From Mactra quadrangularis (Eukaryota > Mollusca > Bivalvia > Venerida > Mactridae), in contig CM046300.1 in assembly GCA_025267735.1 (NCBI GenBank), positions 30,823,322-30,887,321 of the forward strand: DNA of 64,000 nt, given 5' to 3'. This document shows, in pieces, positions 19,977 through 37,250 of this stretch (position 1 is the first letter of the stretch; every line of letters starts with the position of its first letter). The translations under genes and the position numbers were made by a program. The notes beneath the pieces are model-generated. The model was given only the letters and a program-made list of their open reading frames with translations. It had not been told where the DNA came from and searched no databases.

Positions 19977-20149
19977 AAAACGAAAAAAACGAATTTTGGG
20001 AGAGAAAACGATCAAAATTTGGGAGAGAGAAGAGGTACCCACCAAAAAGTAAAACTTTTTTTTGTGCCGCCCTGTGTGTGTTTGTGTGTGTTTGTGTAAG
20101 ACTAGATTTTTTGACATATTGAGAATTCATTCTTCCGGCATAGATGGTT

Positions 20150-20165
20150 GGCCCTGAAAAGGGCC
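20150..20165 (-). terminator. Histone-type 3' stem-loop (SL1) with downstream purine box
   Basis: On the minus strand GGCCCTTTTCAGGGCC forms a 6-bp stem with a TTTC loop, 21 nt after the stop of the 20187-20648 gene. AACCA follows and GGAAGAAT lies about 13 nt further on (20129-20136). Stem length, loop sequence, ACC flank and spacing match the histone mRNA stem-loop and downstream element. Confidence 0.75.
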
Positions 20166-20186
20166 GTTGTCTGTATCTTGAGTTAT

Positions 20187-20648
20187 TTAATGTTTTCGTT
20201 TAGTAACTGTATCATCCTTCTTCTTTTTCTTCAGTGCAGGTTCCTCTGGCATTTTCTTACTGTGCTTGCCTTGTCCATGATGATGTTCATGACGGCTCTC
20301 CGTTGAAAAGCGTACAGGTATTTTCAATTCTTGAGGTATGAATTGTACAGCACAGCTCTGTCTCTTCTCGATCATTTCACGTACATCTTTCAGCGGGTAC
20401 AGCAGCGTTTTAATTTCTCTCAATTCTTTCAAAATGGCAAGCGAAATTTGACGATCTTGACTAAAACTGCACCCACCTGTCTGCTGTTGAGTTGTTGGTT
20501 GAATCATTGTTTGTTGAGTTGGTTGAATTGTTTGTTGTGGTTGCATCATTTGTTGTTGAGGTTGTTGATAGACAGGTTGGTACATGGTAGTATAGTCCAT
20601 CAACTCTGCAGTCTGCATAACTTCTCTTAATAAATCTTGATCCGACAT
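20187..20648 (-). CDS. Q-rich, Lys-tailed Polinton terminal protein
   Basis: A 153-aa protein of no recognised family. Residues about 20-58 are Gln/Pro/Thr-rich (repeated QQP, PTQQT). The middle (about 68-105) is predicted helical with LKELREIKTLL, and the C-terminus is His/Lys-rich with MPEEPALKKKKK, a likely nuclear localisation signal. The MPEE word recurs three times (once as MPEK) in the zinc-knuckle protein at 22317-22688. The ATG at 20646-20648 follows a TATTTATA-like box. The stop codon lies inside the TIR, and the gene ends -KH-stop, as the outermost right-hand gene does. It is first in from the left end and transcribed outward. Function unknown; a DNA- or RNA-binding accessory factor is possible. 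Confidence 0.75.
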   Translation of the reverse strand: MSDQDLLREVMQTAELMDYTTMYQPVYQQPQQQMMQPQQTIQPTQQTMIQPTTQQQTGGCSFSQDRQISLAILKELREIKTLLYPLKDVREMIEKRQSCAVQFIPQELKIPVRFSTESRHEHHHGQGKHSKKMPEEPALKKKKKDDTVTKRKH

Positions 20649-20682
20649 CGTTGCTGGTTAAACAAGAAATGAACGTTCTCGA

Positions 20683-20705
20683 AGCGCGGTGCTATAAATA
20701 GCGCA
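20683..20705 (-). promoter_or_regulatory. Putative TATA region for the 20187-20648 gene
   Basis: GCTATTTATAGC on the minus strand lies about 45 nt upstream of the ATG. It is nearly palindromic, so it also reads TATAAATA on the plus strand. Suggestive only. Confidence 0.4.
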
Positions 20706-21255
20706 CTTCCAAGAATTTTAAGTCTGATGACGTCACGTCATCCATATGGCATGTTTAATATTTATGAATTTACGCTCAGTTGTGTTTCTTTTAAAATTTA
20801 AAATGCCTGTTATTTAAAAACGCTTTATGTAAGACTTTTTTCAATGATTGATCCTTATTCTATCCGTAACATAGATTAATATCATGTCAGTTTCGGAGCA
20901 ATCCTATTTGTAGATTTTATTCAATGAACGATTTTAGACGATTTTCAACCTGTGTTTCTTTCCATACTTCAATTAAAAACGCATTTATTGATTATAATAT
21001 AGGCAGGAATACGTGCATCTTTCCATACTTCAATTAAAAACGCATTTATTGATTATAATATAGGCAGGAATACGTGCATAAATAATAATAATAACGTTAT
21101 AGATGCATACAAATTAAAATAATTGTTATACATATATCATACTAGATTTTTTAAACAAAATAGGGGTTAGATCTAAAAACACGGATTAAATCGAAAATGT
21201 ACTGAGTGATCAATTGTGACAAGTTCAGAATAGATTCTTTCGAAATGAAATGGTT
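20706..21255. other. Polinton non-coding interval with an exact 61-bp tandem duplication
   Basis: No supported gene lies between the leftmost gene and the hairpin at 21256. Positions 20958-21018 and 21019-21079 are identical 61-bp copies starting CTTTCCATACTTCAATTAAA. The rest is AT-rich. It may be promoter-distal regulatory DNA. Confidence 0.6.
20958..21079. repeat. Two identical 61-bp direct repeats
   Basis: Copy 1 is 20958-21018 and copy 2 is 21019-21079, with no mismatch seen. The identity indicates a very recent slippage or recombination event within the Polinton. Confidence 0.9.
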
Positions 21256-21271
21256 GGCCCTGAGAAGGGCC
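21256..21271 (-). terminator. Histone-type 3' stem-loop (SL2) with GAAAGAAT box
   Basis: On the minus strand GGCCCTTCTCAGGGCC (stem GGCCCT/AGGGCC, loop TCTC) lies 16 nt after the 21288 stop. AACCAT follows and GAAAGAAT starts at 21241, about 14 nt past the stem. The loop differs from SL1 by one base while the stem is unchanged. Confidence 0.72.
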
Positions 21272-21287
21272 GTTGTTTTGGTTGCAT

Positions 21288-21608
21288 TTAACGACAACCA
21301 CACTTCCCCATGCACACCACGCACCATTTAGCCCAAGCCTTCTTGGTGGTACCTGTGGCTAAAGAGAACGTCTCTGTTTTGCCTCCACTCCAATTGTTCA
21401 TGAGATCTAATTCGTGATCCCATTCACGTTTTGGAGCCATGCATGGTACTACCATCAGCTCCTTATGCCAGTCCTCTGGAGGTGGAGGCGGTAATGTGAC
21501 ATTATCACCCCAGTCTTCCACTTCTGGGGGTGGCAGTCTCTTCCTTATCTCTGCAAAGCAGATCTTCCTCGGAGGGGGTAAGTTCTTTCTTATGTCTGAG
21601 AAGTTCAT
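21288..21608 (-). CDS. Pro-rich small Polinton protein with Cys-rich tail
   Basis: 106 aa starting at the ATG at 21606-21608. The frame is open further upstream but has no earlier ATG, and the TATA box at 21651-21657 fits this start. The N-terminal half repeats IRKNLPPP, IRKRLPPPE and TLPPPPPEDW, giving proline stretches that could bind SH3- or WW-type domains. The C-terminus is CVVCMGKCGC, a compact Cys cluster that could bind a metal. No family is recognised. It is transcribed outward, divergently from the YPDL-repeat gene, and both share the promoter interval 21640-21775. A histone-type hairpin follows the stop. Confidence 0.7.
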   Translation of the reverse strand: MNFSDIRKNLPPPRKICFAEIRKRLPPPEVEDWGDNVTLPPPPPEDWHKELMVVPCMAPKREWDHELDLMNNWSGGKTETFSLATGTTKKAWAKWCVVCMGKCGCR

Positions 21609-21639
21609 TGTTGGATAAAAACAATACACAGGTCAACGA

Positions 21640-21775
21640 CTTCCCACCGCTTTTATACTCTGGATTGACCTACATTAAAAACGGATTGACCTACAGGAAT
21701 AGGATTGACCTACATCCTGAAAGTACGAGTTTTGATTGGTTCTTCAAGTACGAGTTTTGATTGGTTCTTAGTTTT
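21640..21775. promoter_or_regulatory. Divergent promoter: TATA, three AGGTCA sites, 25-bp CCAAT-type repeat
   Basis: A minus-strand TATA (GAGTATAAAAGCG, 21648-21660) serves the 21288-21608 gene. Three TGACCTACA words at 21666, 21687 and 21706 are inverted copies of the AATGTAGGTCA motif upstream of the right-end genes. Two 25-bp tandem units (21721-21745, 21746-21770) each carry GATTGG, an inverted CCAAT box. The arrangement suggests shared control of both neighbours. Confidence 0.6.
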
Positions 21776-21827
21776 TGTTATCTTGCATTGTGTGGTGTCC
21801 CAGTTCATTCGTGCTCTAGCTTTCAAG

Positions 21828-22145
21828 ATGGGTAACTGCTTAAAACCTTCTCTGTGTGATGATACACCCTCTTACATCAGAATGGGTAATTTGTACCCTG
21901 ATTTGTCAGAGTTCTATACTCAGTCAGATGAATCCAACATCAAAATGGGTAATCTGTACCCTGATTTATCAGAGTTTCAGACAGATGAATCCAACATCAA
22001 AATGGGAAATCTGTACCCAGATTTATCTGAATTTTATGATGATGAGCTGTACAAAAACTACTGGTACTATATCTACTTGGCAGAATGTCAATCAAAGGAT
22101 CCTGTCCTAAGATGGAAGGCCTTCATTACTGCCGCTAAGATCTAA
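21828..22145 (+). CDS. Small protein with three YPDL (late-domain-type) repeats
   Basis: 105 aa from the ATG at 21828 (AAGATGG context); the frame is open further upstream but begins without an ATG. Residues 19-69 hold three near-identical units, each opening MGNLYPDLSEF and spaced by 19-21 residues with DESNIK linkers. YPDL fits the YPxL motif by which retroviral Gag and other proteins recruit ALIX and the ESCRT machinery. The C-terminal 35 residues are aromatic and helical (YWYYIYLAE), unassigned. The N-terminus MGNC resembles a myristoylation signal but has Lys at position 6, which disfavours it. Inferred role: virion egress or endosomal sorting. A histone-type hairpin follows 14 nt after the stop. 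Confidence 0.8.
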   Translation: MGNCLKPSLCDDTPSYIRMGNLYPDLSEFYTQSDESNIKMGNLYPDLSEFQTDESNIKMGNLYPDLSEFYDDELYKNYWYYIYLAECQSKDPVLRWKAFITAAKI

Positions 22146-22159
22146 TAACTAAAACCAAC

Positions 22160-22175
22160 GGCCCTTTTCAGGGCC
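22160..22175 (+). terminator. Histone-type 3' stem-loop (SL3) with GAAGAAT box
   Basis: GGCCCTTTTCAGGGCC starts 14 nt after the stop at 22145, then ACACCA, then GAAGAAT at 22191-22197, about 15 nt past the stem. Confidence 0.72.
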
Positions 22176-22222
22176 ACACCATTTACTTACGAAGAATAAC
22201 AAACAACATTTATGTCAATATA

Positions 22223-22228
22223 TTTATT
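22223..22228 (-). terminator. Polyadenylation signal AATAAA for the zinc-knuckle gene
   Basis: On the minus strand AATAAA lies about 90 nt after the stop at 22317. Unlike its neighbours, this gene has no GGCCCTTTTCAGGGCC hairpin. Confidence 0.5.
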
Positions 22229-22316
22229 TTTAAAATATTACAAATCATTTCACTCACTGTGTTCTGTCACTGTGTACACTCACTACGTTCAGTCACTATG
22301 TTCACATAAGTCACAT

Positions 22317-22688
22317 TTAGTCCATGTTCTTTGCCCGTTTACGTTTCTTTTCTTTCTTTTTTTCCTCCGGCATCTCAGTGTTGATTTTCTCCGGCATTTC
22401 TATATCGATCCTGTTTTCCTCCGGCATGTCGATCACCAACTTATTCTCATTCACATCTTCTTCTCTTTTTTTCAATGGACAGTTGTTTATATAATGTCCT
22501 TTGTCATGACAGTAATAACATCCATCTGTGTACCTTGGTTGATTCATACAACTATTTGCATAATGTCCTTTTTCATGACAACGATAACATTCAATATGAC
22601 TTAAATCCTCAGTATCCAACTTAACAACAATGGCATGCACTTCAGCAAGTTTTTTCTTTAACTCGTAGATCAATGTACTCTGAGCCAT
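22317..22688 (-). CDS. Two-zinc-knuckle (CCHC) nucleocapsid-like protein
   Basis: 123 aa. Residues 34-47 and 57-70 are two perfect Cys-x2-Cys-x4-His-x4-Cys knuckles (CYRCHEKGHYANSC, CYYCHDKGHYINNC), the fold of retroviral nucleocapsid and of CNBP-type nucleic-acid-binding proteins. A short amphipathic helix precedes them. The tail carries MPEE/MPEK repeats and a basic KKKEKKRKRAK signal likely to direct it to the nucleus. The gene is divergent from the DNA polymerase and shares a compact two-TATA promoter. Inferred role: single-stranded nucleic-acid binding in replication, or RNA handling. CCHC proteins are not part of the Polinton core set. Confidence 0.85.
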   Translation of the reverse strand: MAQSTLIYELKKKLAEVHAIVVKLDTEDLSHIECYRCHEKGHYANSCMNQPRYTDGCYYCHDKGHYINNCPLKKREEDVNENKLVIDMPEENRIDIEMPEKINTEMPEEKKKEKKRKRAKNMD

Positions 22689-22742
22689 AATTGTTCACAG
22701 TTCGAAGACGTGTTTCGAAATGATCTGAGAGCTGAACATCTC

Positions 22743-22804
22743 TCCCTTTTATACACAACTGCTCGCCGTTGGGTATAAAAACGATCGTTGTTTCTACATT
22801 CAGT
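22743..22804. promoter_or_regulatory. Divergent TATA promoter (zinc-knuckle gene / DNA polymerase)
   Basis: On the minus strand TATAAAAGGG begins at 22753, with TCAG words about 25-30 nt downstream. On the plus strand GGTATAAAAACG (TATA at 22774-22780) is followed 28 nt later by a TCAGT initiator at 22800-22804. The two TATA boxes are only about 20 bp apart, facing away from each other. Confidence 0.75.
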
Positions 22805-22814
22805 CATCATAACC

Positions 22815-25800
22815 ATGTCTCACGAAGACGAGCAACCACCTCCTACCAAGAGATTAAAAACAGACAATGTACGTCAGTTCTATAATATACAACGGAGGTC
22901 GGAAAGAAAATCAAGAAAGTTTAGAACCAAGGCTCAAGTCTACGATGTCACACTACAACAGTATGATCAATCATATGAATTTACCAGTCGTTTATTCAAC
23001 GATATGATTGAACAACTCTATGACACATGTCAAGTGAAATCAACCGATCAAGTTCGATTCTCCATTCAACATCCAGAGCTAGATTTTGGTATTCATATAC
23101 CATTTAATCAAGCATCCAGCGTCATGGGAGAATCCTTATTAGAAGAAATCGAGAAAGTGGCACAGAGTAATCAAGCATTTAGAATTCATGATGGAGAAAC
23201 CCAGCTAGAAATAACACATATTGAGATGCCCCAAGGTTCTGGGAAGAGTGTACCATTTAAATCAGTAAATGTTAGTCATCTTATTCAAACCAAAAGAAGT
23301 ATTGTACGTATTGACAACAGCTCAGATGCTATGTGTTTGGCCAGATCTATTGTGGTCGGTCGATGTAAAGCGAACCAGACTTCAGCACCTGAATGGAAAA
23401 AACGATGGAATCTTCTTCGTCAATCCAAGAAAAATCTACAAACATTAGAAGCAAAAGCGTTATTGGATCAAGTTGGTATAGGAGTCCATCAACCCTGTGG
23501 TATAGAAGAATACAAGAAACTACAAGATCATTTGTACCCAGAGTATGTCATTAAAATACGTACACAACATGGAAGGGATCTATTATTCACACCTCCAGAA
23601 GTGACTAAAAAAAGCCGAGTGATACACATTTATCATCATGATAATCATTATGACTGTATTGTATCTATCACGGGATTCCTAGCAAAAAGTTATTTCTGTG
23701 AATATTGTGATGTAGGATATAGTAATCGTGAAGGTCATAAATGTGTACATATTTGTGCATGTTATTCACCCACTCCATGTAAAATAGGTAAACCTTATTA
23801 TTGTTCTGTCTGTCGTCGAATGTTCAACAGTAAACAATGTTTTGAGAATCATAAATCTACGCAAGGAAAACAAAAAAAGACCATATGTCAGTCTGTGTGT
23901 AAATGTAAAACATGTGGCCAGATTATTGTTGAAACAAAACGCAATCATCAATGTACAGGTACGAAAAAGTGTCGTTATTGTAAAACAACCGTTGGACCAG
24001 GTCATGAGTGTTTTATTCCAACGTATGAATCACCAGACAAGAAGCCAGCAAAAGTACCCTTTATCTTTTTTGATTTTGAATGTCGCTTTGATTCGGGTGA
24101 ACATATTCCAAATTTCTGTGTAGCTCAAAGAGCGTGTGGGAATTGTATGTGTCAGTCTGTTCAAGAACCCTGTGAAACATGTGATGGTGTCGAAGGAGCT
24201 CGTGAAATGGTGTTTCGCGGAGAAGATACTTTAAAACAGTTCTTTACATGGCTATTTCAATCAACCCACCGTGGATCAACAGTGATTGCTCATAATGCTG
24301 GTGGATATGATGTGCAGTTTATTCTACGACATGCTATTACACATGGAAGTGCCAAACCCGAGTTAATCATGAATGGGTCTAAAATTATTATGATGAAAAT
24401 ACATGGAGTGCGTTTGATTGACTCACTCAGTTTTCTGAGCATGCCCCTCTCTGCATTTCCAAAAACATTTGGATTGGATGAATTAGCTAAAGGATGGTTT
24501 CCATTCTATGCCAACAAGTTGGAGTTTCAAGATTATGTAGGACCCTATTTATCTTTGTACTACTATAGACCTAATAGTATGAAACCAGCTCAACGTGAAC
24601 AATTTCTGGCTTGGTACAATGAACAAAAAGACAAAGTGTTTGACTTTCAATTGGAAATGGAGAAATATTGTAGATCAGATGTTGACATTTTACGACGAGG
24701 GTGCGGAGAATTTCGTAAACAGTTATTAGAGAGTGATCAAATAGATCCATTCTTGGAAGCCACAACATTAGCACAAGTTTGTAATAAAGCATGGAGAAAA
24801 AACTCGATGCCAGAACTGAGTTTAGGTATTATTTCTGATGCTGGATATCCCAACAAAACGAAATATTCTATGAAAGGCGTGCGTTGGCTACAAATGATGG
24901 CTTTGACAGAAGGTATTCATATTCAACATGCCTTGAACCATCATGGTGAAGTCAAGATTGGGCCATATTATGTAGATGGATTTTGTAAAGATACGAATAC
25001 CGTGTATGAATTTATGGGATGTTGGTATCATGGATGCCCCGAGTGTTTTCCCAATAGAGATCTGATCAATCCGTATTCCTTGAAAACCATGGGTGAGTTG
25101 TATGCCCACACACAATTTCGTCTCAAAGAATTGAAAGATCAAGGCTACACATTAGAAGTGATGTGGGAATGTGAATTTGAGAAAAAATGTAAAGCAGACA
25201 AGGCCTATAAAACCAGAGTAGAACGATTTTATTTTGGTCAAGATCCTATCATCCCCCGTGAAGCTTTATTTGGAGGTCGCACCAATGCTGTCAAATTGTT
25301 TCATGAATGTGAAGAAGGTCAAGAAATAAAATATGTAGACATTTGCTCCTTGTATCCCTTTGTGAACAAGTATAGAGCTTATCCTATTGGTCATCCTACT
25401 ATATTAAGTCAAGAACAGATTGATCTCACTCAACTAGATCTCTACAAAGGACTGATTAAATGTTGTGTTTTACCCCCTCAAGATTTATGGATGCCAGTAC
25501 TTCCCATGCATTGTAATAAAAAGATGGTGTTTACATTATGTCGCACATGTGCTCAAGAGGTACAAGTGGGAAAGCCATGCACTCATACGATAAGGGAACG
25601 TAGTTTGTTTGGCACATGGACTCATGTTGAACTGGCTAAAGCTATAGAGTTGGGTTATCGTGTATTGAATGTGTATCATGTATGGCATTGGGAGGATTGG
25701 AGTTCAGATGTGTACCGTCGATACATAGACAAATACTTGAAAATAAAACAAGAAGCTAGTGGTTATCCAAGTGGTGTGACAACAGAAGCAGAACAAAACC

Positions 25801-26603
25801 AGTTTAAAGAAGACTACTATAAAGCAGAAGGTATTGTGTTAGAGCATGTAGAGAAAAACCCTGGAAAAAGAGCATTTGCTAAAACTATGCTCAATTGTTT
25901 ATGGGGTAAAAATGCCCAGAACAATATTCTACCTAAAACAGAGTATGTACACAAATTAGATCGGTTATATGAGATTTTGTCTGATCCTAGAAAGTCTGTT
26001 AAATATACAGAAACCTTTGATCATGATGAATTCATGTTAGTGAATTATACAGATGAAAACGATAAAGTAGAACCCCATTCTTCATCCAATCCTGTAGTGG
26101 CCTCGTATGTTACAGCCTATGCAAGATTAGAACTTTACAAAGTGCTTGAACCTTTAGGAAAAAGAGTCCTTTATTTTGACACGGACTCTTGCATGTTTAT
26201 TTATGATCCCAACGGGTACAATGTTCCTATCCACTCCAGTCGTTTAGGAATGTGGACCGATGAAGTGCCTCAAGGTCGTATTGTAAAATATGTAGCTTTA
26301 GGTCCAAAGAATTATGGTTATGAATATATAGAAAACGGAGAAGTGCATCAGACTTGCAAAGTCAAAGGTATCACTTTAGATTTCAATGCTTCACAGAAAG
26401 TCAATTTTAATTCCATGGTGGAATGTGTCAAAAATCGTGATCAGTATTCTACAGTCGTAGAGTATGAATCTAGAATAAAACGACATCGGGATCGTAAAGT
26501 CACCAGTGAGAAACAAACCAAGACATTTCGTTCGGTGTATACAAAACGTATCATCATTGACAATTACATGACGGTACCCTTTGGTTACAATTCATTGACA
26601 TGA
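22815..26603 (+). CDS. PolB: Protein-primed family B DNA polymerase (pPolB) with OTU-like and Cys-rich N-terminus
   Basis: 1,262 aa from the ATG at 22815 (AACCATG, just after the TCAGT initiator). It replicates the element, presumably from a protein primer at the TIRs. Exonuclease motifs: D420/E422 in FFDFEC, HNAGGYD at 493-499, YCRSD at 618-622. Polymerase motifs: DICSLYP at 842, KTMLNCLWGK at 1023 and DTDS at 1122-1125. All catalytic residues are present. The N-terminal 170 residues carry an NLS-like TKRLK. Residues 171-280 contain D-x-x-C (D171, C174) and DNHYD (H278), as in OTU cysteine proteases; this is an inference. Residues about 297-400 hold many Cys-x2-Cys/His pairs, likely zinc fingers. 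Its stop overlaps the next start in ATGATG. Confidence 0.97.
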   Translation: MSHEDEQPPPTKRLKTDNVRQFYNIQRRSERKSRKFRTKAQVYDVTLQQYDQSYEFTSRLFNDMIEQLYDTCQVKSTDQVRFSIQHPELDFGIHIPFNQASSVMGESLLEEIEKVAQSNQAFRIHDGETQLEITHIEMPQGSGKSVPFKSVNVSHLIQTKRSIVRIDNSSDAMCLARSIVVGRCKANQTSAPEWKKRWNLLRQSKKNLQTLEAKALLDQVGIGVHQPCGIEEYKKLQDHLYPEYVIKIRTQHGRDLLFTPPEVTKKSRVIHIYHHDNHYDCIVSITGFLAKSYFCEYCDVGYSNREGHKCVHICACYSPTPCKIGKPYYCSVCRRMFNSKQCFENHKSTQGKQKKTICQSVCKCKTCGQIIVETKRNHQCTGTKKCRYCKTTVGPGHECFIPTYESPDKKPAKVPFIFFDFECRFDSGEHIPNFCVAQRACGNCMCQSVQEPCETCDGVEGAREMVFRGEDTLKQFFTWLFQSTHRGSTVIAHNAGGYDVQFILRHAITHGSAKPELIMNGSKIIMMKIHGVRLIDSLSFLSMPLSAFPKTFGLDELAKGWFPFYANKLEFQDYVGPYLSLYYYRPNSMKPAQREQFLAWYNEQKDKVFDFQLEMEKYCRSDVDILRRGCGEFRKQLLESDQIDPFLEATTLAQVCNKAWRKNSMPELSLGIISDAGYPNKTKYSMKGVRWLQMMALTEGIHIQHALNHHGEVKIGPYYVDGFCKDTNTVYEFMGCWYHGCPECFPNRDLINPYSLKTMGELYAHTQFRLKELKDQGYTLEVMWECEFEKKCKADKAYKTRVERFYFGQDPIIPREALFGGRTNAVKLFHECEEGQEIKYVDICSLYPFVNKYRAYPIGHPTILSQEQIDLTQLDLYKGLIKCCVLPPQDLWMPVLPMHCNKKMVFTLCRTCAQEVQVGKPCTHTIRERSLFGTWTHVELAKAIELGYRVLNVYHVWHWEDWSSDVYRRYIDKYLKIKQEASGYPSGVTTEAEQNQFKEDYYKAEGIVLEHVEKNPGKRAFAKTMLNCLWGKNAQNNILPKTEYVHKLDRLYEILSDPRKSVKYTETFDHDEFMLVNYTDENDKVEPHSSSNPVVASYVTAYARLELYKVLEPLGKRVLYFDTDSCMFIYDPNGYNVPIHSSRLGMWTDEVPQGRIVKYVALGPKNYGYEYIENGEVHQTCKVKGITLDFNASQKVNFNSMVECVKNRDQYSTVVEYESRIKRHRDRKVTSEKQTKTFRSVYTKRIIIDNYMTVPFGYNSLT

Positions 26604-27205: not shown

Positions 27206-27443
27206 AATCATTACCAAAGCATTATTGCTAGCATGTCGTTTGAAAATACCAAAAGGTGTATATAATAGGGACTGGATTCAGCAGTTTATGAATTCTCCTT
27301 TGATGTTGGAAGAATTGGACATGGCACTTTTTGTGGTGAATCATATACATCATACTCATGTGTACGGAGTGAATTGGAAAGATATTGTTAATTTAGATTG
27401 TGTTTTAAATGCTCTTGAACAAAAATATTGTGTTCATTGTTGA
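27195..27443 (+). CDS. 82-aa accessory protein, unrecognised
   Basis: It overlaps the end of the preceding gene by 11 bp in another frame. The sequence is helical and moderately basic at the N-terminus, with HIHHTH in the middle and the C-terminus ALEQKYCVHC. The same last codons reappear as an orphan LELKYCVHC-stop frame after the CARD gene (about 27740-27772), so the 3' end of this gene was duplicated around the CARD gene. Function unknown. Confidence 0.55.
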   Translation: MRNRIITKALLLACRLKIPKGVYNRDWIQQFMNSPLMLEELDMALFVVNHIHHTHVYGVNWKDIVNLDCVLNALEQKYCVHC

Positions 27444-27772: not shown

Positions 27773-27793
27773 AACAATTTCTAATGTGTAAAC

Positions 27794-28719: not shown

Positions 28720-28752
28720 GCTCACTTGAGGATCATTGACTCATTATCCATC

Positions 28753-30098: not shown

Positions 30099-30772
30099 AG
30101 AAAATGGCTATTGTTCCGTTCAAAGTGTTGGAAGAGATGCAACGATGGAAAACACAACAACGACCTCGTTTACCACCTTCTCCTCAAGTCACCCAAACAG
30201 CTCAATTAGAAAATGAAATGAATCATGTGTTAAATGAAGATGCTTTATCACCCTCAGAAAAAGCTAGACAATATGGTGAAGTGTTACATAAATTTCAACA
30301 GTCGCATGAAAGAGCTCGTACACCAAAAGCAACGGTAATGCCTCCAGCAGCACCAACAACACCGCCACCAACAACAACGACATTGAAAGATCAAATTGTA
30401 GAAAGTGTACCACGCACTATGCGGCGTAAAGCTGAACTTTTAATCAACATGTTAAAACAACATCCTCATATGTCATGGAATGAACAAGGTGTTTTAGAAT
30501 ATGATGGAAAACCTGTAGCAGGATCCAATATTATTGATTTAGTCAATGATGTATTACGCCAAAGAAAAAGCTCCAACCCTCGTGGTTGGGAACAGTTTTC
30601 ACGTGGATTAAGAGATGTGAACGTGCCTCAAGAAGTGGTAGGAAATAAAAGACGTTGGAATTGGATTCAACAGTTAGATGACAACGTGGAAGACGAGGAC
30701 GAAGAAGATCAATTTTATGAAAGTTTTTCCAGTCCTACAGATCTCAAGACTGAAAAATGGGATCCTTATTAA
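30095..30772 (+). CDS. Conserved Polinton protein upstream of integrase
   Basis: 225 aa from the ATG at 30095, again in an ATGA overlap; the frame is open upstream without need. An N-terminal helix (MKKMAIVPFKVLEEMQRW) is followed by a Pro/Thr linker (about 90-105) and a compact domain (about 108-190: LLINMLKQHP, SWNEQGVLEYDGKPVAGSNI, DLVNDVLRQRK). The tail is acidic (DEDEEDQ). Proteins with this compact domain recur beside the integrase in invertebrate Polintons, but I know no assigned function. Its last 16 bp overlap the integrase start. Confidence 0.65.
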   Translation: MKKMAIVPFKVLEEMQRWKTQQRPRLPPSPQVTQTAQLENEMNHVLNEDALSPSEKARQYGEVLHKFQQSHERARTPKATVMPPAAPTTPPPTTTTLKDQIVESVPRTMRRKAELLINMLKQHPHMSWNEQGVLEYDGKPVAGSNIIDLVNDVLRQRKSSNPRGWEQFSRGLRDVNVPQEVVGNKRRWNWIQQLDDNVEDEDEEDQFYESFSSPTDLKTEKWDPY

Positions 30773-31830
30773 AGAAAGTGTTACGTTCCATCTATTACAA
30801 TCCTGCAAATCCAGCAGCATTTGGTGGAATACAAGCTCTGTACAAAGCTGCAAGACGCCAATTAAAATCTATCACTTTGAATCAAGTGAAATCCTGGTTA
30901 AAAGGAGAGAACACCTACACTCTGCATAAACCTATACGACGTAAATTTTCCAGAAGAGCAACCGTAGTAGCAGGGATTGATCATCAATGGCAAGCTGATT
31001 TAGCTGATATGCAATCATTGGCACAATTTAATAAACCTTATCGTTATTTACTTTGTGTTATTGATGTTTTTTCAAAATATGCTTGGGTCATTCCTATTGA
31101 AAATAAAACAGGCAATACACTTATTCAAGCATTTAGTTCTATTCCAAGAAAACCTAAAGCTCTGCAAACCGATAAAGGAACTGAATTTAAAAATCATGCA
31201 TTTCAACAGTTTCTTAAAAAATCGGGTATTCATTTTTTCACCACTGAAAATCCAGAAACCAAAGCAAGTGTTGTTGAACGGTTTCAACGTACATTGAAAA
31301 CACGTATGTGGAAATATTTCACTCATGAAAATACACGGCGCTATGTAGACATATTGCCTAAACTGGTTCATAGTTATAATCATCGGTTTCATCGTAGCAT
31401 TCAAAGAACACCAGCTTCTGTCAATGCACAAAATGAAGCCCAAGTCTCTAACGCATTGTACGGTAAGAAAAAACAAGGTTCATCCCACACCATTCAGGTG
31501 GGAGATCGAGTACGTTTGAATAAAACAAAACGTACATTTGACAAAGGTTATTTACCCAATTGGACCACTGAAATATTTAAAGTAGTACGTGTGTCCAAAA
31601 CCCAACCTTCCACTTTTAAATTAGAAGATTTAGAGGGTGAGAAAATATTAGGCTCTTTTTATGTTTCGGAAATTCAACCTATATTTGATAGTGACATTTA
31701 CGAAATTGAATCAGTTCTTGATCGGCGTCAGAGGAGTGTAGGTGGAAAAAAGATACGGGAAATAAAAGTACATTGGAAAGGCTACCCTTCTAAATTTGAT
31801 AGTTGGATACCAGAATCTTATCTTGTATAA
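30757..31830 (+). CDS. INT: Retroviral-type (rve) integrase with C-terminal chromodomain
   Basis: 357 aa. The catalytic triad is D81 (QADLADM), D139 (QTDKGTEF) and E174 (SVVERFQ), with 34 residues between the second Asp and Glu. The region after the core (about 245-300) resembles the beta-barrel DNA-binding part. Residues about 313-357 form a chromodomain (YEIESVLDRR, VHWKGYPSKFDSWIPE) that may steer insertion to modified histones. It joins element ends to target DNA and makes the 6-bp duplication seen here. All catalytic residues are intact. Confidence 0.96.
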   Translation: MGSLLKKVLRSIYYNPANPAAFGGIQALYKAARRQLKSITLNQVKSWLKGENTYTLHKPIRRKFSRRATVVAGIDHQWQADLADMQSLAQFNKPYRYLLCVIDVFSKYAWVIPIENKTGNTLIQAFSSIPRKPKALQTDKGTEFKNHAFQQFLKKSGIHFFTTENPETKASVVERFQRTLKTRMWKYFTHENTRRYVDILPKLVHSYNHRFHRSIQRTPASVNAQNEAQVSNALYGKKKQGSSHTIQVGDRVRLNKTKRTFDKGYLPNWTTEIFKVVRVSKTQPSTFKLEDLEGEKILGSFYVSEIQPIFDSDIYEIESVLDRRQRSVGGKKIREIKVHWKGYPSKFDSWIPESYLV

Positions 31831-31837
31831 ATACATC

Positions 31838-32080
31838 ATGTCTCAGACAGATAGTGCCAGTATTCAAGTGGACCCCACCGTCATTAAACCTTGTGAACCC
31901 AAAAACAAAGTTACGTTTATCTCACAAATTGTGGTGGTATTTATTATTATCTCTGTGTCTTTATTTAATTTATGTTTTCAACGTCCTGATCGTGAATTGT
32001 GGCTTTTATTATTAAGTAGCTCTTTGGGTTATATTTTACCAAATCCTTCTTTGAAATTTAATAAACCTAAATCAACATGA
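31838..32080 (+). CDS. Two-helix membrane protein
   Basis: 80 aa from the ATG at 31838, 7 nt after the integrase stop. It has two predicted membrane segments, about 26-47 (FISQIVVVFIIISVSLFNL) and 53-68 (ELWLLLLSSSLGYILP), separated by a short QRPDR turn. Small membrane proteins with the LSSSLGYxLPNP-like end occur in other Polintons at this place. Possible roles: virion membrane, egress or membrane penetration. The stop overlaps the next start in ATGA. Confidence 0.7.
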   Translation: MSQTDSASIQVDPTVIKPCEPKNKVTFISQIVVVFIIISVSLFNLCFQRPDRELWLLLLSSSLGYILPNPSLKFNKPKST

Positions 32081-32901
32081 GTTCTTTTTACATTACATTA
32101 ATGAGTGATAGTTCTACAGATTTGTTTCCTGATAATATACAATGTTGTTTTCGTACAAAATTGATCAAACCTGTACATTTAAATAAACAAGATTGGGAAA
32201 TTGCTCTAGTCGAATTAATTGTACCAAGTCAAGTCATAAATATTACACAAGAGGAAGGAACATTTTACATTGTCAGTCAAGATGAAAATGTTCGCAGAGC
32301 ATTGAGTGGTCTTCCTGAACATTGTGCTCAAGGTTTATGTTTATCTATTCCGCCTGCAACTTATGTAACACCACAACATCTCATTCAAACGATCGATGAA
32401 ACGATTAAAAATTATATTGGAGGTATTTTAAAAAAATACAATCTTACATTGGTGATGAGTTTTTCTAATATTAGTAAAACAGTGAAAATGGCTAGTTCGG
32501 ATGAATTGGGTATTCAATTTCATCCTGATCTGTTCATAAAACTAGGGGGAGATCCAAATGATTCTACTACTGTGTATTTGAAAGACAATAAAAATCCATT
32601 TCCTTATGGTGTAGATGTGCATATGGGACATAATCATTTATTTGTGTATTCTGATCTTGCCTCTTACACTTTGTTAGGAAATATAGAAGCCCCCATTCTG
32701 CGTGTGGTTCCATTTGAATCGGTGACTAAAGCAGGGAGTAATCCCCATATTCATTTCGAATTTTTAAATTTACACTATGTTCCTCTTGCCAAAGCCGATT
32801 TTGACACCATTCATATAAATATAAGGGGAGACACAGGCAAACATATTCATTTTGTGCACGGGAAGTCGATGGTAAAAGTTCATATTCGACAGAAACAATG
32901 A
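32077..32901 (+). CDS. Minor capsid (penton-like) protein
   Basis: 274 aa, located between the membrane protein and the pVI-like protein, upstream of the major capsid gene, as in other Polintons. The start MSSFYITLMSDSSTDLFPDN and the C-terminal pattern FDTIHINIRGDTGKHIHFV, ending MVKVHIR, are typical of the single-jelly-roll penton proteins of this group. It should occupy the five-fold vertices of the icosahedral capsid. Joined to both neighbours by ATGA overlaps. Confidence 0.88.
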   Translation: MSSFYITLMSDSSTDLFPDNIQCCFRTKLIKPVHLNKQDWEIALVELIVPSQVINITQEEGTFYIVSQDENVRRALSGLPEHCAQGLCLSIPPATYVTPQHLIQTIDETIKNYIGGILKKYNLTLVMSFSNISKTVKMASSDELGIQFHPDLFIKLGGDPNDSTTVYLKDNKNPFPYGVDVHMGHNHLFVYSDLASYTLLGNIEAPILRVVPFESVTKAGSNPHIHFEFLNLHYVPLAKADFDTIHINIRGDTGKHIHFVHGKSMVKVHIRQKQ

Positions 32902-33266
32902 TACCCATTTACAAAGGTCAAGCTCGTCAATATGGACATGGTTTAGGATCCGTGTTTAAAAAAGCTATGAAAAATGTCATGCCTCTACTACAACCCTTGT
33001 TCAAAACTGGAATGAAAACCTTAAAACATGAAGCGGTTCGTCAAGGAAAAGGGGCTGTGCAAGATTTAATGATAGGCTCCAAGCCTAAAGAAGTGGTGAG
33101 AAAACGTGGGGCTAACATGCTTAAAAACATGGGTGAACAATTACTCAAAGCTGTTGTTCCTGCCAAACGTACAAAACCCACACACCCAAAGAAAAGAGTT
33201 CATTCTAAACCTAGACGTTCAAGTGTCAAGAAGTCAAGACCTCACGACATATTTGATCAAAAATGA
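32898..33266 (+). CDS. Basic adenovirus pVI/pX-like virion protein
   Basis: 122 aa, overlapping ATGA at both ends. The N-terminus GHGLGSVFKKAMKNVMPLLQ is glycine-started and amphipathic. The rest is strongly basic (KRTKPTHPKKR, SKPRRSSVKKSRP). Position and character fit the small lytic/core proteins of adenovirus-like and Polinton virions. They help release DNA or disrupt the endosome and are usually matured by the viral protease. A processing site near YGHGLG is possible but does not fit the consensus well. Confidence 0.72.
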   Translation: MIPIYKGQARQYGHGLGSVFKKAMKNVMPLLQPLFKTGMKTLKHEAVRQGKGAVQDLMIGSKPKEVVRKRGANMLKNMGEQLLKAVVPAKRTKPTHPKKRVHSKPRRSSVKKSRPHDIFDQK

Positions 33267-34561
33267 TGCAACACGGTTCATGCGAATGCAGTAAGACAGA
33301 ATTGGATGTAGGATTTGTTCCACCTACCATGACAGCCATGCAAGAGGGTCAATGGACTGAACATTACCCTATATCTACTTTGGATAACAATGCACCTATT
33401 GAATTTGTGATTCCTGCACAGACAGAAAAGTGGACAGATTTAAATCAATCGTACTTGTATTTAAAAGTCAAAGTGGTACAAGAAAATGGAGATAATTTAG
33501 CCAATGATGCAGAAGTGGCTCCTGTCAACAATTTCTTTCACAGTTTATTCAGCAGTATTGATGTCTACTTGAACAATAAACTGATTACCAGTAATGCCGA
33601 TACGTATGCGTATCGCGCGTACATTGAAAACTTACTTTCCTACACCAAAGGATGTAAACAAACTCAATTACAAGGATTGGAGCTATGGGTTGAAGATACG
33701 GCAGGCCAGATGAATACCCGAGTACATGATGGAGATAACAAAGGTTATGTTCACCGAAGACTACAGATACATCAAAGTCGTACGTTAGAACTCTGTGGAC
33801 GACTTCATTTAGATTTGGTCATGCAAGAAAAATATATTCCCAATGGTGTTGAAATACGTTTACGCTTAAACAGAGCTTCAGCCAACTTTTGTTTGATTGG
33901 CACATCTGCTGGCAAAGTTCAGTTTACACAAGCTGGATTCAATGTGCGAACCGTGGATTTACTACCCATCGTAGCTACACAGCTCAATCAGCAGATTGCT
34001 CAACATAATATGAAAATTCCGATCAAACGAGCTGAAGTCAAAACATTCACGATTCCTGGAGGTCAACGATCCAAGATTGAAGATCATCTTTTTCAAGGAC
34101 AACTGCCAAAACGATTGATCATTGGTATGGTGAGCAATGGAGATATGAATGGAAATCCTGAAAGCAACCCTTTCAATTTCCAACATTTTAATTTGAATCA
34201 GCTGGAAGTCAGTATTGATGGTAAAAGTATACACAACAAACCCTTTCAACCCAACTTTGCGAGCGGAGAATGTTTACGTTCCTACATGTCCTTGTATCAA
34301 GCCACGGGCTCCCTTGGAGTCAATAGATCCATGGGTATTAGTTTGAACGATTACAGAAACGGCTATACACTGTGGGGTATAGATTTGACGGCAGATCAAG
34401 GTGCAGAAGAAGGACAGCTTCATCCTATAAAGACAGGAAATCTACGTTTAGAGTTTCATTTCTCTCGAGCCCTTGATGCAGCTATCAACGTTATTGTGTA
34501 TGCTGAGTACGACAATCAGATTGAAATCAATTCGTACAGAGAAGTAATACTAGACTATTGA
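33263..34561 (+). CDS. MCP: Major capsid protein (double jelly-roll)
   Basis: 432 aa, first ATG in the ATGATG overlap. The segment EFVIPAQTEKWTDLNQSYLY followed by LKVKVV, then NNFFHSLFSSIDVYLNN and AYIENLLSYTKGCKQTQL, is the hallmark N-terminal half of Polinton double-jelly-roll capsid proteins. The C-terminal half ends in LRLEFHFSRALDAAINVIVY, followed by AEYDN, also typical. The protein forms pseudo-hexameric trimers of the icosahedral shell. The frame is uninterrupted. Confidence 0.95.
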   Translation: MMQHGSCECSKTELDVGFVPPTMTAMQEGQWTEHYPISTLDNNAPIEFVIPAQTEKWTDLNQSYLYLKVKVVQENGDNLANDAEVAPVNNFFHSLFSSIDVYLNNKLITSNADTYAYRAYIENLLSYTKGCKQTQLQGLELWVEDTAGQMNTRVHDGDNKGYVHRRLQIHQSRTLELCGRLHLDLVMQEKYIPNGVEIRLRLNRASANFCLIGTSAGKVQFTQAGFNVRTVDLLPIVATQLNQQIAQHNMKIPIKRAEVKTFTIPGGQRSKIEDHLFQGQLPKRLIIGMVSNGDMNGNPESNPFNFQHFNLNQLEVSIDGKSIHNKPFQPNFASGECLRSYMSLYQATGSLGVNRSMGISLNDYRNGYTLWGIDLTADQGAEEGQLHPIKTGNLRLEFHFSRALDAAINVIVYAEYDNQIEINSYREVILDY

Positions 34562-34563
34562 AG

Positions 34564-35040
34564 ATGAGTGAAGACATGATGTGTGATGAAATTGAAATCA
34601 GTGAAGGACAACATTTTGAAATAGAACTGTTTACTTTTCCGTGTTGTGAAAGCTCACGGACTGAGTTTTTAAAGGACAATTTAAATCATCATGTCGTAGA
34701 AGAATTACAATCATTGATATATCAAAAAGTGAAAGAGGATTGCTACGGGTGCATTGTAGATCACCCAAGTCAGATTAACCATCCGTTATGTTTGTATTCT
34801 ACAACAGATGAATGGACAGATCTGTATATTGAAAAAGCTCTACTTGAATTAAACATTTACAGAGTGTTAGAAAAATGGTATCCTCATCTTCATTCTTTAT
34901 CCAAAGAAGAAAAGGGAGATGCCCGACGTTTGTGGGTTCAGTTTGTATCTGAATTTGAAAGCCATCGGTCAGAATTACCTTGTGACTGGGTGACTTTATG
35001 GTCAGAACGTGTGAAGAAAGTGTGGCATTATGGAGACTAA
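34564..35040 (+). CDS. Conserved Polinton protein between capsid and protease genes
   Basis: 158 aa from the ATG at 34564, 2 nt after the capsid stop. A Cys/His-bearing middle (DCYGCIVDHPSQINHPLCLY, about 58-77) could bind a metal, and helices rich in Trp and Glu follow. Similar proteins occur in many animal Polintons but have no assigned role that I know. It overlaps the protease start by 11 bp, so it is probably translated from the same transcript. Confidence 0.7.
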   Translation: MSEDMMCDEIEISEGQHFEIELFTFPCCESSRTEFLKDNLNHHVVEELQSLIYQKVKEDCYGCIVDHPSQINHPLCLYSTTDEWTDLYIEKALLELNIYRVLEKWYPHLHSLSKEEKGDARRLWVQFVSEFESHRSELPCDWVTLWSERVKKVWHYGD

Positions 35041-35608
35041 TGAACTTCAATATGTGTTGGACCATTCACCCTTATTAAAAACATTACATGGACGTGTATG
35101 TGCTAAAGATGAATTATCTCTAGAGAATGGTGTGAGAGCTTTCATCGTGAATACACATAATTCAGATCAACCTGGTGAACATTGGGTTGCTATCTACTTG
35201 AAAGGATCTACAGCTATTTACTTTGATTCGTACGGACTTCCGCCGTTGGAAGATATTCTATGTTTCTTAAAGAGACATTTCAAAATTTACTATTGGAATA
35301 AAGTTAGACTACAAGGTGTTTTTAAACCCGTGTGTGGATTATATTGTATTTTTGCTTTAGACTTTTTATCTCGTGGTTGTGATTTAAATGAAGTGATTCA
35401 AACACGATTTGACATGAGATTTGATAAAAACGATGTGTATGTTCGCGATTGGTTTGCTCAACATTACTGGAGCTATTATAATCAAGCCTATCAATTGAAT
35501 AAAACAGGACAAATATGTTGTTGTGAAGTAGGCAGTTACGATAAAGACTGGTTTCATGAGATAATGCGATGTAGAAACAGAGTTCATTTTGGTTGGTATT
35601 ATGGATAG
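35030..35608 (+). CDS. PRO: Adenain-like cysteine protease (C5/Ulp1 fold)
   Basis: 192 aa. The catalytic set is visible: H51 in GEHWVAIYL, D66 in YFDSYG, Q95 in RLQG (oxyanion hole) and C102 in PVCGLYC. Order and spacing match adenovirus endopeptidase and other Ulp1-fold proteases. It matures virion precursors; candidate substrates here are the QKGG-bearing and pVI-like proteins. It carries a C-terminal extension (about 145-192) with CCCEVGSYD, unassigned. Last gene of the structural block, followed by tandem AATAAA signals. Confidence 0.93.
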   Translation: METNELQYVLDHSPLLKTLHGRVCAKDELSLENGVRAFIVNTHNSDQPGEHWVAIYLKGSTAIYFDSYGLPPLEDILCFLKRHFKIYYWNKVRLQGVFKPVCGLYCIFALDFLSRGCDLNEVIQTRFDMRFDKNDVYVRDWFAQHYWSYYNQAYQLNKTGQICCCEVGSYDKDWFHEIMRCRNRVHFGWYYG

Positions 35609-35868
35609 TTGTATGTAAATAATATGTTGTTGTTGTGTTTTATCTCTGTTTTTTGCTTTATTTCCTGTTCTATGTATCTGTTACATGTGTTCTTTCTTAT
35701 TTGATGTTATAAAATAAAAATAATAAACCTAAAGATGTGTTGTTGTGATTTTGAGTTGATTTGTATGTATACTTAAGTGGCAATCAGTCCATAAAGACCT
35801 ACCAACAAACACAAATTAATCACTCGACCGAACGTCCAAAGACGTGCTCTCTCTCACGTTCGCGCTGA
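35609..35868 (+). terminator. 3' end of the structural unit with tandem AATAAA
   Basis: AATAAA at 35713-35718 and 35722-35727 lies about 105 nt after the protease stop, preceded by T-rich sequence. No histone-type hairpin is present here. 35730-35868 has no gene and leads into the next promoter. Confidence 0.65.
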
Positions 35869-35869
35869 C

Positions 35870-35935
35870 GCTATATAACGTCGCGCTCTGAGTAGGTCAC
35901 TTCACACCACTTTTCGACACCGAACAGTGATCATC
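35870..35935 (+). promoter_or_regulatory. TATA promoter of the 35936 gene
   Basis: CTATATAACG (TATA at 35872-35878) is followed by GTAGGTCACTTCACACCAC and CGAACAGT before the ATG. The words CACTTCAC…CACTTTTC and GAACAGT recur before the 36815 gene, so the two right-end genes share leader and core promoter sequence. One AGGTCA half-site (35893-35898) is included. Confidence 0.65.
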
Positions 35936-36400
35936 ATGGACAGCCTTGTGAACCAACTTAGAAAAATTAGAATGTTGAGAGCTAAAGAAGCTAGAACTTG
36001 GTATAGTGTCCGCCGTTGGGTGGATCAACAAACCTGTGAAAAAGAAAAGCGTGAACAGAATGTGGCTCTAGCCGTAATGGAATTAGAAAGCATGAGACAG
36101 GAGGAAGAGAGAGCTAGTCGTCTTGTAGAAAGACAACAAGATCTAGACTTTCAATGGTGGATGCAGCGTGTGCAAAATAATGAATGTGGCTGTGAATATT
36201 GTCTTGGACAATTTAAAAAACAACGCCAGCAGGCTAGACAACAACAGCAGCAGCAGGCTAGACAAGAACAACTACAGCAGCAGGCTAGACAACTAGAAGA
36301 ACTACAGCAACGGGCTAGACAACAATTCAATGAACCTGCAACAGTCAGCATGCCGAATGAAAGACCAGACATCAAACCCGAAAGCACCAGCGATGTCTAA
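35936..36400 (+). CDS. Gln-rich coiled-coil right-end protein
   Basis: 154 aa from the ATG at 35936 (ATCATGG). The N-terminal 30 residues resemble those of the neighbouring 75-aa protein (KIRMLRAKEARTWYSVRRWV against KKLRFLEFTCWLGVRRCV). A long charged coiled coil follows (about 30-75). CGCEYC at about 83-88 could bind a metal. The Gln/Arg repeat QQARQ (about 95-135) comes from imperfect CAG-CAG-GCT-AGA-like tandem repeats at 36225-36330. No family recognised. Ends in a histone-type hairpin. Confidence 0.72.
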   Translation: MDSLVNQLRKIRMLRAKEARTWYSVRRWVDQQTCEKEKREQNVALAVMELESMRQEEERASRLVERQQDLDFQWWMQRVQNNECGCEYCLGQFKKQRQQARQQQQQQARQEQLQQQARQLEELQQRARQQFNEPATVSMPNERPDIKPESTSDV

Positions 36401-36424
36401 ATAACTCTGAAGTTATAAACCAAC

Positions 36425-36440
36425 GGCCCTTTTCAGGGCC
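36425..36440 (+). terminator. Histone-type 3' stem-loop (SL4) with ACCCA flank and GAAAGAA box
   Basis: GGCCCTTTTCAGGGCC begins 24 nt after the stop. It is followed directly by ACCCA, the canonical histone 3' flank. CGAAAGAATAT begins at 36453, 13-14 nt past the stem, like the histone downstream element that pairs with U7 snRNA. The best of the five matches. Confidence 0.8.
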
Positions 36441-36537
36441 ACCCATCTTTTTCGAAAGAATATAATCTCATCATGTCAATAAAAGTCACAAAAACATATC
36501 ATATAATTCAGTCTTATAAAAACAAAGTCCATACACA

Positions 36538-36803
36538 AACCAACACGAACAAACTCAAAATATGTAAACTGACTTTCCATTGGATATACGTTTTAATGTA
36601 GGTCAATCCGTTTTAATGTAGGTCAATCCGTTTTAATGTAGGTCAATCCTATTTTTCTGATCACTTCACTTTTCACCACAAACCAACACTAACAAACTCA
36701 AAATATGTAAACTAGCTTTCCATTGGATATACGTTTTAATGTAGGTCAATCCGTTTTAATGTAGGTCAATCCTATTTTTCTGATCACTTCATTTTTCACT
36801 ATA
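36538..36803 (+). promoter_or_regulatory. Duplicated promoter block with five AATGTAGGTCA sites
   Basis: Block 1 (36538-36680) and block 2 (36681-36803) share AACCAACAC.AACAAACTCA, AAATATGTAAACT, CTTTCCATTGGATATACG, AGGTCAATCCTATTTTTCTG and GATCACTTCA. AATGTAGGTCA occurs at 36595, 36615 and 36635 in block 1 and at 36738 and 36758 in block 2, each 20 bp apart. It fits the ROR/REV-ERB nuclear-receptor consensus WAWNTRGGTCA. Only block 2 leads into a gene. Confidence 0.72.
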
Positions 36804-36814
36804 GAACAGTTAAG

Positions 36815-37042
36815 ATGGACTTAGATCAGCTTATCGCTCACAATAAAAAACTAAGATTTCTAGAATTTACATGCTGGTTAGGTGTTCGCCGTTGTGTAGA
36901 AAAATTAAATCGTATTAAAGAAGAACGAGAATTGATAGATTCAGTTATAGAACAACTTTCTCAACAAACACCATGCGTATTGAAAGATTTATCAGCGATA
37001 CAGAATGATCTGTATGAAAGAAGAAAGAAAAATAAACATTAA
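36815..37042 (+). CDS. 75-aa outermost right-end protein, paralogue of the 35936 gene
   Basis: The ATG at 36815 follows the AATGTAGGTCA promoter and a GAACAGT leader shared with the 35936 gene. It is predicted entirely helical, with charged coiled coil (LNRIKEERELIDSVIEQL). Its N-terminal VRRCVEKL aligns with VRRWVDQQ of the neighbour, so the pair probably arose by duplication of gene and promoter. The stop lies in the right TIR and the gene ends -KH-stop like the leftmost gene. No known family. Confidence 0.7.
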   Translation: MDLDQLIAHNKKLRFLEFTCWLGVRRCVEKLNRIKEERELIDSVIEQLSQQTPCVLKDLSAIQNDLYERRKKNKH

Positions 37043-37063
37043 ATAACTCAAGATACAGACAAC

Positions 37064-37079
37064 GGCCCTTTTCAGGGCC
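37064..37079 (+). terminator. Histone-type 3' stem-loop (SL5) with GGAAGAAT box
   Basis: GGCCCTTTTCAGGGCC begins 21 nt after the stop, then AACCA, and GGAAGAAT at 37093-37100. It is the TIR mirror of SL1, so this pair is not independent evidence; SL2, SL3 and SL4 are. Confidence 0.75.
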
Positions 37080-37250
37080 AACCATCTATGCCGGAAGAAT
37101 GAATTCTCAATTGTCAAAAAATCTAGTCTTACACAAACACACACAAACACACACAGGGCGGCACAAAAAAAAGTTTTACTTTTTGGTGGGTACCTCTTCT
37201 CTCTCCCAAATTTTGATCGTTTTCTCTCCCAAAATTCGTTTTTTCGTTTT

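Follow-up and report, generated by a model that had tools for sequence, protein, structure and literature searches.

Replication-dependent histone mRNAs of metazoans (Rfam RF00032, Histone3) carry, near the stop codon, a 6-bp stem with a 4-nucleotide (nt) loop, which is followed by an ACC-like flank and a purine box. SLBP binds this stem-loop, the element further downstream is recognised through base pairing by the U7 small nuclear ribonucleoprotein (U7 snRNP), and CPSF73 cuts between the two, after which SLBP, whose presence is S-phase specific, is still needed for translation and stability (PMC7026596, PMC7807067). Signals of this kind were found behind five genes of a Polinton/Maverick element in a 64,000-nt stretch of the Mactra quadrangularis genome (contig CM046300.1, positions 30,823,322 to 30,887,321), hereafter referred to as the window. 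These five genes, here called stem-loop (SL) genes 1 to 5, share the stem, loop, flank, box and closeness to the stop codon with histone messages, but they are not histone genes and belong to a virus-like mobile element with copies scattered through the genome.

Polintons/Mavericks and adintoviruses resemble the element of the window in their terminal inverted repeats (TIRs), 6-bp target site duplication (TSD), PolB, chromodomain integrase, A32-like ATPase, and putative capsid and protease, whereas histone-type 3′ ends were observed at the terminal genes of the present family only and not in the divergent Polintons examined. Mimivirus and its virophage place a palindrome after most transcription units, but these palindromes are not known to have a constant sequence of histone type or to be joined by such a flank or a purine box. 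The likeness lies in the palindrome past the stop codon and in the kinship of these systems with Polintons; in the Polinton of the window, by contrast, the sequence is near-fixed and is joined by flank and box. Among cellular genes, histone genes of Lucina pectinata have a stem-loop near the stop and, in part of the genes, a purine-rich element close to it (PMC6210712). Moreover, H2AFX (H2A.X) lies outside the histone clusters and bears both kinds of 3′ signal, as does SL gene 4 (for H2AFX, see PMC7807067), although it is a cellular histone variant and not part of a mobile element.

Stem-loops behind five terminal Polinton genes

The element, its SL genes and their 3′ signals are listed below. 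Scores refer to the Rfam model and to a host covariance model, which was trained solely on the 3′ ends of the host H1, H2A, H2B, H3 and H4 genes and was built after the observation had been made.

19826..37401, no strand assigned, Polinton/Maverick element with both ends present (TIRs, TSD, Pfam domains)
20187..20648, minus strand, SL gene 1, open reading frame (ORF) of 153 amino acids (aa), Q-rich with a basic C-terminus
20150..20165, minus strand, stem-loop of SL gene 1, inside the TIR (Rfam 33.4 bits; host model 34.8 bits)
20113..20149, minus strand, 3′ flank of SL gene 1: AACCA, purine box GGAAGAAT (20129-20136), TCTCA, ATGTC
21288..21608, minus strand, SL gene 2, ORF of 106 aa, proline-rich
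21256..21271, minus strand, stem-loop of SL gene 2, loop TTCT (Rfam 32.7 bits; host model 43.2 bits)
21218..21255, minus strand, 3′ flank of SL gene 2: AACCA, box CGAAAGAAT (21234-21242), TTGTC, without TCTCA
21828..22145, plus strand, SL gene 3, ORF of 105 aa, MGNC start and internal MGNLYPDLSEF repeats
22160..22175, plus strand, stem-loop of SL gene 3 (Rfam 35.8 bits; host model 42.5 bits)
22176..22216, plus strand, 3′ flank of SL gene 3: ACACCA, box CGAAGAAT (22190-22197), ATGTC, without TCTCA
35936..36400, plus strand, SL gene 4, ORF of 154 aa, Q-rich
36425..36440, plus strand, stem-loop of SL gene 4 (Rfam 40.3 bits; host model 45.8 bits)
36441..36477, plus strand, 3′ flank of SL gene 4: ACCCA, box CGAAAGAAT (36453-36461), TCTCA, ATGTC; an AATAAA begins at 36478
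36815..37042, plus strand, SL gene 5, ORF of 75 aa, absent from some copies of the element
37064..37079, plus strand, stem-loop of SL gene 5, duplicate of the SL gene 1 hairpin through the TIR (Rfam 33.4 bits; host model 34.4 bits)
37080..37115, plus strand, 3′ flank of SL gene 5: AACCA, box GGAAGAAT (37093-37100), TCTCA, TTGTC

The preliminary description of this locus had reported a hairpin 14-24 nt past the stop codons of five genes, and all five were recovered at the same coordinates and strands: the distance from stop codon to stem was 21, 16, 14, 24 and 21 nt for SL genes 1 to 5, with the hairpin on the sense strand in 5/5. The letters given there, GGCCCTTTTCAGGGCC, were exact in 4/5, but the hairpin at 21256-21271 has the loop TTCT. 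All five sites are present, but those at 20150 and 37064 were duplicated through the TIR, which leaves four independent instances. A histone-like flank and a purine box, also reported there, follow each hairpin, the box starting 13-15 nt past the stem in 5/5. All hairpins are confined to the outer 2.4 kb (left) or 1 kb (right) of the Polinton. Both 16-mers found in the window are included in the stem-loop list used for human histone transcripts, as given in PMC7807067.

It was observed that the hairpin pattern, with at most three mismatches, matched five times in the window, whereas 100 shuffled sequences gave 0.07 matches on average and 2 at most. The RF00032 model detected the same five sites with E-values from 2e-8 to 1.4e-5, and at E<=1 it gave no additional site in the window; its gathering cut-off of 34 bits was reached by 2/5 (40.3 and 35.8 bits). 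The pattern GAA+GAAT occurred within +9..+32 of the hairpin at 5/5 sites, against 211/35032 element positions (0.6%). Between hairpin pairs not related through the TIR, the stretches -60..-6 and +33..+90 were mostly at shuffle level, with a few pairs above it, whereas stem, flank and box were kept.

Two other evident gene ends of the Polinton have AATAAA instead:

22317..22688, minus strand, zinc-knuckle gene, AATAAA 89 nt past the stop
22815..35608, plus strand, central run of tightly packed genes that starts with PolB and closes with the protease-like gene, no stem-loop

No sense hairpin was found on the 3′ side of the zinc-knuckle gene, the one of this kind there being that of SL gene 3 on the opposite strand. 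The central run has AATAAA 105 and 114 nt past its last stop (35608). Within it, the gap 27748-28071, with ATTAAA at +174 and AATAAA at +278 after a CARD gene, may divide the run and represent an additional ordinary gene end. In contrast, no AATAAA or ATTAAA was found within 330 nt of the stop of SL genes 1, 3 and 5. TATA-like boxes lie ahead of some genes of both classes (SL and non-SL), and thus the classes differ by their 3′ ends and not by an obvious promoter type.

Host histone genes and processing machinery

An exact-pattern search of the host assembly (979 Mb) located histone genes on contig 11, in tandem arrays that repeat about every 5.7 kb. The repeat unit examined (L043) encodes H1, H3, H4, H2B and H2A, with a Histone3 hairpin after each (31.1-35.6 bits), and 2/5 of these genes pass the RF00032 cut-off. 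Their stems read GGCCCT/AGGGCC in 4/5 genes and GGTCCT/AGGACC in H1, from which it follows that the Polinton stem is of the local histone type. The C-G pair of this stem had been regarded in the preliminary description as a peculiarity of the Polinton; a Polinton-specific compensatory change was rejected, since the host histones have the same pair.

The resemblance extends beyond the stem. The box of host H2A is CGAAGAAT, identical to that of SL gene 3, and those of the other host histone genes are looser (CGAAGTG, CGAAAAG, CGAACAA and AAGAAGAG). [AT]TGTC was found at +30..+37 in 5/5 Polinton sites and 4/5 host histone genes against a background of 7-8%, and TCTCA in 3/5 and 4/5, respectively, against about 2%, both patterns having been picked after the alignment had been inspected. 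The model trained on the host histone genes is a cleaner test than such post hoc motif counts, and it recognised all five sites with scores of 34.4-45.8 bits, while nothing else in the window reached E<=1. Moreover, the 40 nt past the Polinton stems resembled those of host H2A with z from 2.3 to 4.6, and those of the other four histone genes with z from 1.4 to 4.8, both relative to simple shuffles. As for the machinery, two exons encoding the RNA-binding domain of host SLBP were identified at G000:C6:33628954-33630058 (56.7 and 34.3 bits, cut-off 27).

Distribution in copies, relatives and other host loci

The assignment of the element to Polintons/Mavericks relies on TIRs, a 6-bp TSD, PolB, an rve integrase and an A32-like ATPase, all of which were found. 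The flanks carry CTGGTA at 19820-19825 and 37402-37407; the outer inverted arms (19826-19999/37228-37401) are 97% identical, the 78-nt arms of the inner part (20118-20195/37034-37111) are 100% complementary, and further arm pairs are present. Pfam matches comprised DNA_pol_B_2, rve plus Chromo (integrase) and Pox_A32 (A32-like ATPase), while that to the adenovirus-type protease (PF00770) was weak (E 0.021, below the cut-off). One more gene served to trace the family:

33263-34561, putative capsid gene, which we take to be such from Polinton gene order and from its relatives

No match to this protein was found in Pfam, PHROGs or PDB sequences. Its database relatives number 774; among the best 120, those that bear an organism name come from bivalves, with a single exception from a bacterial assembly (Candidatus Thiodiazotropha), and, within these 120, the closest named ones belong to Mercenaria mercenaria (71 and 69%). 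The element also encodes a CARD-domain protein at 27409-27747 (PF00619, E 1.6e-16), which may target cell-death or immune pathways of the host.

The host genome holds at least 46 full-length capsid genes 97-100% identical to that of the window, and at least 34 divergent ones at 27-31%. A recent burst is apparent, in which 16 capsid copies, including the window's own, tie for the top score with 100% amino-acid identity. The exact hairpin occurs 255 times in the genome, against 0 for a reversed-pattern control. Hairpins per copy were counted for 22 of the 46 capsid copies, on contigs 1-9 and among the first 100 of the 255 places: the exact hairpin was present at SL gene 4 in 22/22, at SL gene 3 in 16/22, in the left TIR in 17/22 and in the right TIR in 6/22, where misses may include loop variants and one copy sits at a contig start. 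Such a variant, the loop TTCT at SL gene 3, was found in a copy on contig 13 (L067). In the left ends of three copies (L066-L068), SL genes 1 to 3 all had stem-loop and box (3/3). A second hairpin was not seen in the right ends of four other copies (4/4), and neither SL gene 5 nor its hairpin was seen in copy L065, read by eye. SL gene 5, with the long terminal repeat that supplies its hairpin, thus seems to exist in a subset of copies only, as a terminal gene gained or lost at the right end. Repeats of GTAGGTCAATCC / GGATTGACCTAC at window positions 21650-21720 and 36590-36780 lie upstream of SL genes 2, 3 and 5, for which they are a possible shared control element; they are kept in L065.

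In 20 comparisons of copies with the window, which share ancestry and therefore do not give independent counts, mismatches numbered 1/320 in the stem-loop, 3/320 at +9..+24 (the box), 4/100 at -5..-1 and 3/160 at +1..+8, against 131/1609 at +41..+124 and 86/1865 at -100..-6. Among the copies compared, the divergence of stem-loop and box is hence roughly one tenth of that found past them, and the sole change in the stem-loop was T to C in the loop. In the coding regions, differences in SL gene 2 relative to three copies were mostly synonymous (synonymous:nonsynonymous 10:2, 12:5 and 10:1), whereas the corresponding counts for SL gene 1 were set aside because indels had distorted them. The ORF of SL gene 4 was intact ahead of the stem-loop in copies L006-L012 and L065, with ratios of 9:2, 3:3, 9:3, 5:4 and 6:6 and no clear synonymous excess in 3/5 copies. 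SL gene 1 has four homologues at E<=0.001, 54-60% identical and all from Mactra antiquata. The number of internal repeats in SL gene 3 varies among copies, and its MGNC start (21828-21840) is a possible lipid-attachment signal.

Outside this family, the exact TTTC-loop hairpin, the only form searched, was found within 25 kb of 0/19 divergent capsid loci (of the 34). No Histone3 match at E<=3 was obtained in a divergent element with inverted ends (L070, L072 and L073; the capsid gene lies outside the part read) or in a partial one (L071, L074 and L075), and AATAAA follows several genes of both. Four distant loci from bacterial assemblies (L001-L004; 27-41% identical in the best segment), of which two have record titles naming Escarpia and Bathymodiolus, gave no Histone3 match; having no inverted repeats of at least 40 nt, they are uninformative about terminal genes. 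In a viral contig collection, neither the capsid nor the PolB query had a relative and none of the stem-loop patterns tried gave a match, and no relatives were found in a phage collection. The hairpin trait thus appears, from these sequence searches, specific to one Polinton family.

The same hairpin was also encountered elsewhere in the host genome. A dispersed family of SGNH/GDSL hydrolase genes (Pfam PF13472; 50 matches) includes members with a histone-type stem-loop just past the gene, at L054:244-777 (G000:C5:31773834) and L049:950-1492 (G000:C3:7690955), the latter with three tandem stem-loops ahead of the box, and three further cases were assigned by coordinates alone (G000:C3:9660758, C11:78123 and C1:44154741). 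As predicted from these 3′ sequences, the SGNH hydrolases would join the Polinton genes as another non-histone family whose ends are of histone type. A divergent pair of unknown genes encoding 118 and 150 aa (L005:1571-1927, minus strand, and L044:335-787, plus strand; G000:C9:57.48 Mb) likewise has a stem-loop and a GAAGAAT box behind each gene (host histone model scores of 46.1 and 43.5 bits), and no element was recognised around it. Finally, dispersed repeats (L045-L048, L050, L051, L053, L055-L058 and the end of L044) carry the identical hairpin, often several in a row and many with an ACTCA flank, with no ORF longer than 37 aa ending just upstream. At 11 of these loci, one site each, the box was found in 0/11 and TGTC in 1/11; in L046, a second hairpin is followed by CGAA.

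Interpretation and alternative readings

Since stem-loop and purine box are present and match those of the host, we consider it quite probable that the SL genes use histone-type 3′ processing by SLBP and U7, as the preliminary description had proposed. This proposal was strengthened by the Rfam and host-trained models, the shared box and motif, the sense placement, AATAAA behind the other genes, the low divergence and the host SLBP. From the observed signals, their match to host histones, their low divergence and the presence of SLBP, we infer a pathway in which host RNA polymerase II would transcribe the five terminal genes, SLBP would bind the stem-loop and U7 snRNP would pair with the downstream purine element, so that cleavage by CPSF73 a few bases past the stem would yield an mRNA that ends in the stem-loop and has no poly(A). 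Ordinary poly(A) signals would serve the zinc-knuckle gene and the central genes. The element would so have two gene classes by 3′ end, and synthesis, translation and persistence of the stem-loop class would be concentrated in S phase, when SLBP is abundant. We also lean, with less assurance, towards real S-phase gating of the SL genes, which is rated lower because, as H2AX illustrates, stem-loop genes outside the clusters can also use poly(A) signals.

Several observations weigh against SLBP/U7 processing. Three of the five sites (33.4, 33.4 and 32.7 bits) miss the RF00032 cut-off by 0.6-1.3 bits, TCTCA is present at no more than 3/5, and the zone that holds TCTCA and TGTC (+25..+40) had 16/320 mismatches plus 7 gap columns among copies, not conserved above the flanks. 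The U7 small nuclear RNA was not found in the host genome: the Rfam U7 model gave nothing over its cut-off, and a U7-like pattern occurred at control rate (40 vs 37). One of ten candidates inspected (L084) has a hairpin past an Sm-like site and is not claimed as U7; its pairing with the boxes of host histone genes did not exceed that of shuffled sequences (fraction 0.28-0.40), and that with the Polinton boxes was slightly better (0.03-0.05). With the host model, some of the ORF-less repeats reach 32-40 bits, including two (L048, 40.3 bits; L044 near 8133, 39.0 bits) that exceed both TIR sites, and thus a hairpin alone, which these repeats carry without the box, is no proof of function; the SL genes are singled out by the combination of stop codon, stem, flank and box. 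Moreover, the divergent Polintons examined have no hairpin. The expectation that related elements would carry it therefore held for copies of the same family and failed for the distant ones, and the claim applies to the present family and not to Polintons at large. The poly(A) signals behind two SL genes, AATAAA at +78 after the stop of SL gene 4 and at +238 and +299 after that of SL gene 2, also point towards dual 3′ ends, in which stem-loop and box work and a downstream poly(A) site is used as well, as in H2AX, with expression both in and outside S phase. H2AFX makes both mRNA forms (PMC7807067), but 3/5 SL genes have no such signal within 330 nt of the stop, and C. elegans histone genes keep AATAAA past the hairpin and yet end at the hairpin (PMC1924863). 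Dual ends are a possible but rather doubtful alternative.

That pieces of host histone 3′ ends were captured and hitch-hike, with no role, in the element or its terminal repeats would agree with the origin of 2/5 copies as terminal-repeat duplicates and with the hairpins of the dispersed repeats that have no long ORF. This is improbable, given that all copies in the window are stop-linked, in sense orientation and followed by the box, that between non-TIR copies the module is kept and the flanks are mostly near shuffle level, that stem-loop and box show few mismatches among element copies, and that no AATAAA lies near three SL genes. Even less credible is a generic hairpin terminator of the Mimivirus/virophage type, read by a system of the element or of a helper virus instead of SLBP/U7. 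Polintons are related to virophages, and the palindromes do come after stops, but here the letters, and not just the pairing, are histone-like, the sequence is near-fixed at five sites, the box is on one side only, the central run and the zinc-knuckle gene have no sense hairpin, and a divergent Polinton of the same genome has none at all. The location of two copies inside the TIRs and of all in the outer 2.4 kb (left) or 1 kb (right) might recall a signal at the DNA level, such as a cruciform or a terminal-repeat site for replication or packaging. We regard this as the most improbable reading, since loop, flanks and box are directional and always on the coding strand past a stop, and since the exact right-end hairpin was missing from its place in 16/22 copies, with no second one seen in 4/4 other right ends.

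Returning to SLBP/U7 processing, the histone 3′ end may be a module that can be moved between genes and that virus-like elements take up so as to bring selected genes under SLBP/U7 control, which would produce two mRNA classes and leave part of the programme open only in replicating cells. The SGNH family and the unrelated gene pair carry the module in the same genome, which suggests capture more than once. For this broader proposal, the arguments for and against seem to us evenly balanced.

No earlier report of histone-type 3′ ends in genes of Polintons or DNA viruses was found in full-text literature searches, which covered titles and abstract starts in partial listings, with subscription papers and preprints largely outside, and priority is thus unproven. 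To our knowledge, the timing of gene expression in Polintons is poorly understood. If the SLBP/U7 reading is correct, a stem-loop ending otherwise known from histone messages would be used by several genes of a virus-like element, and transcripts of the SL genes could be missed by poly(A)-selected RNA-seq. These genes would also be natural non-histone substrates in which stem-loop and downstream element can be tested on their own, and they would offer a direct handle on the timing of Polinton expression.

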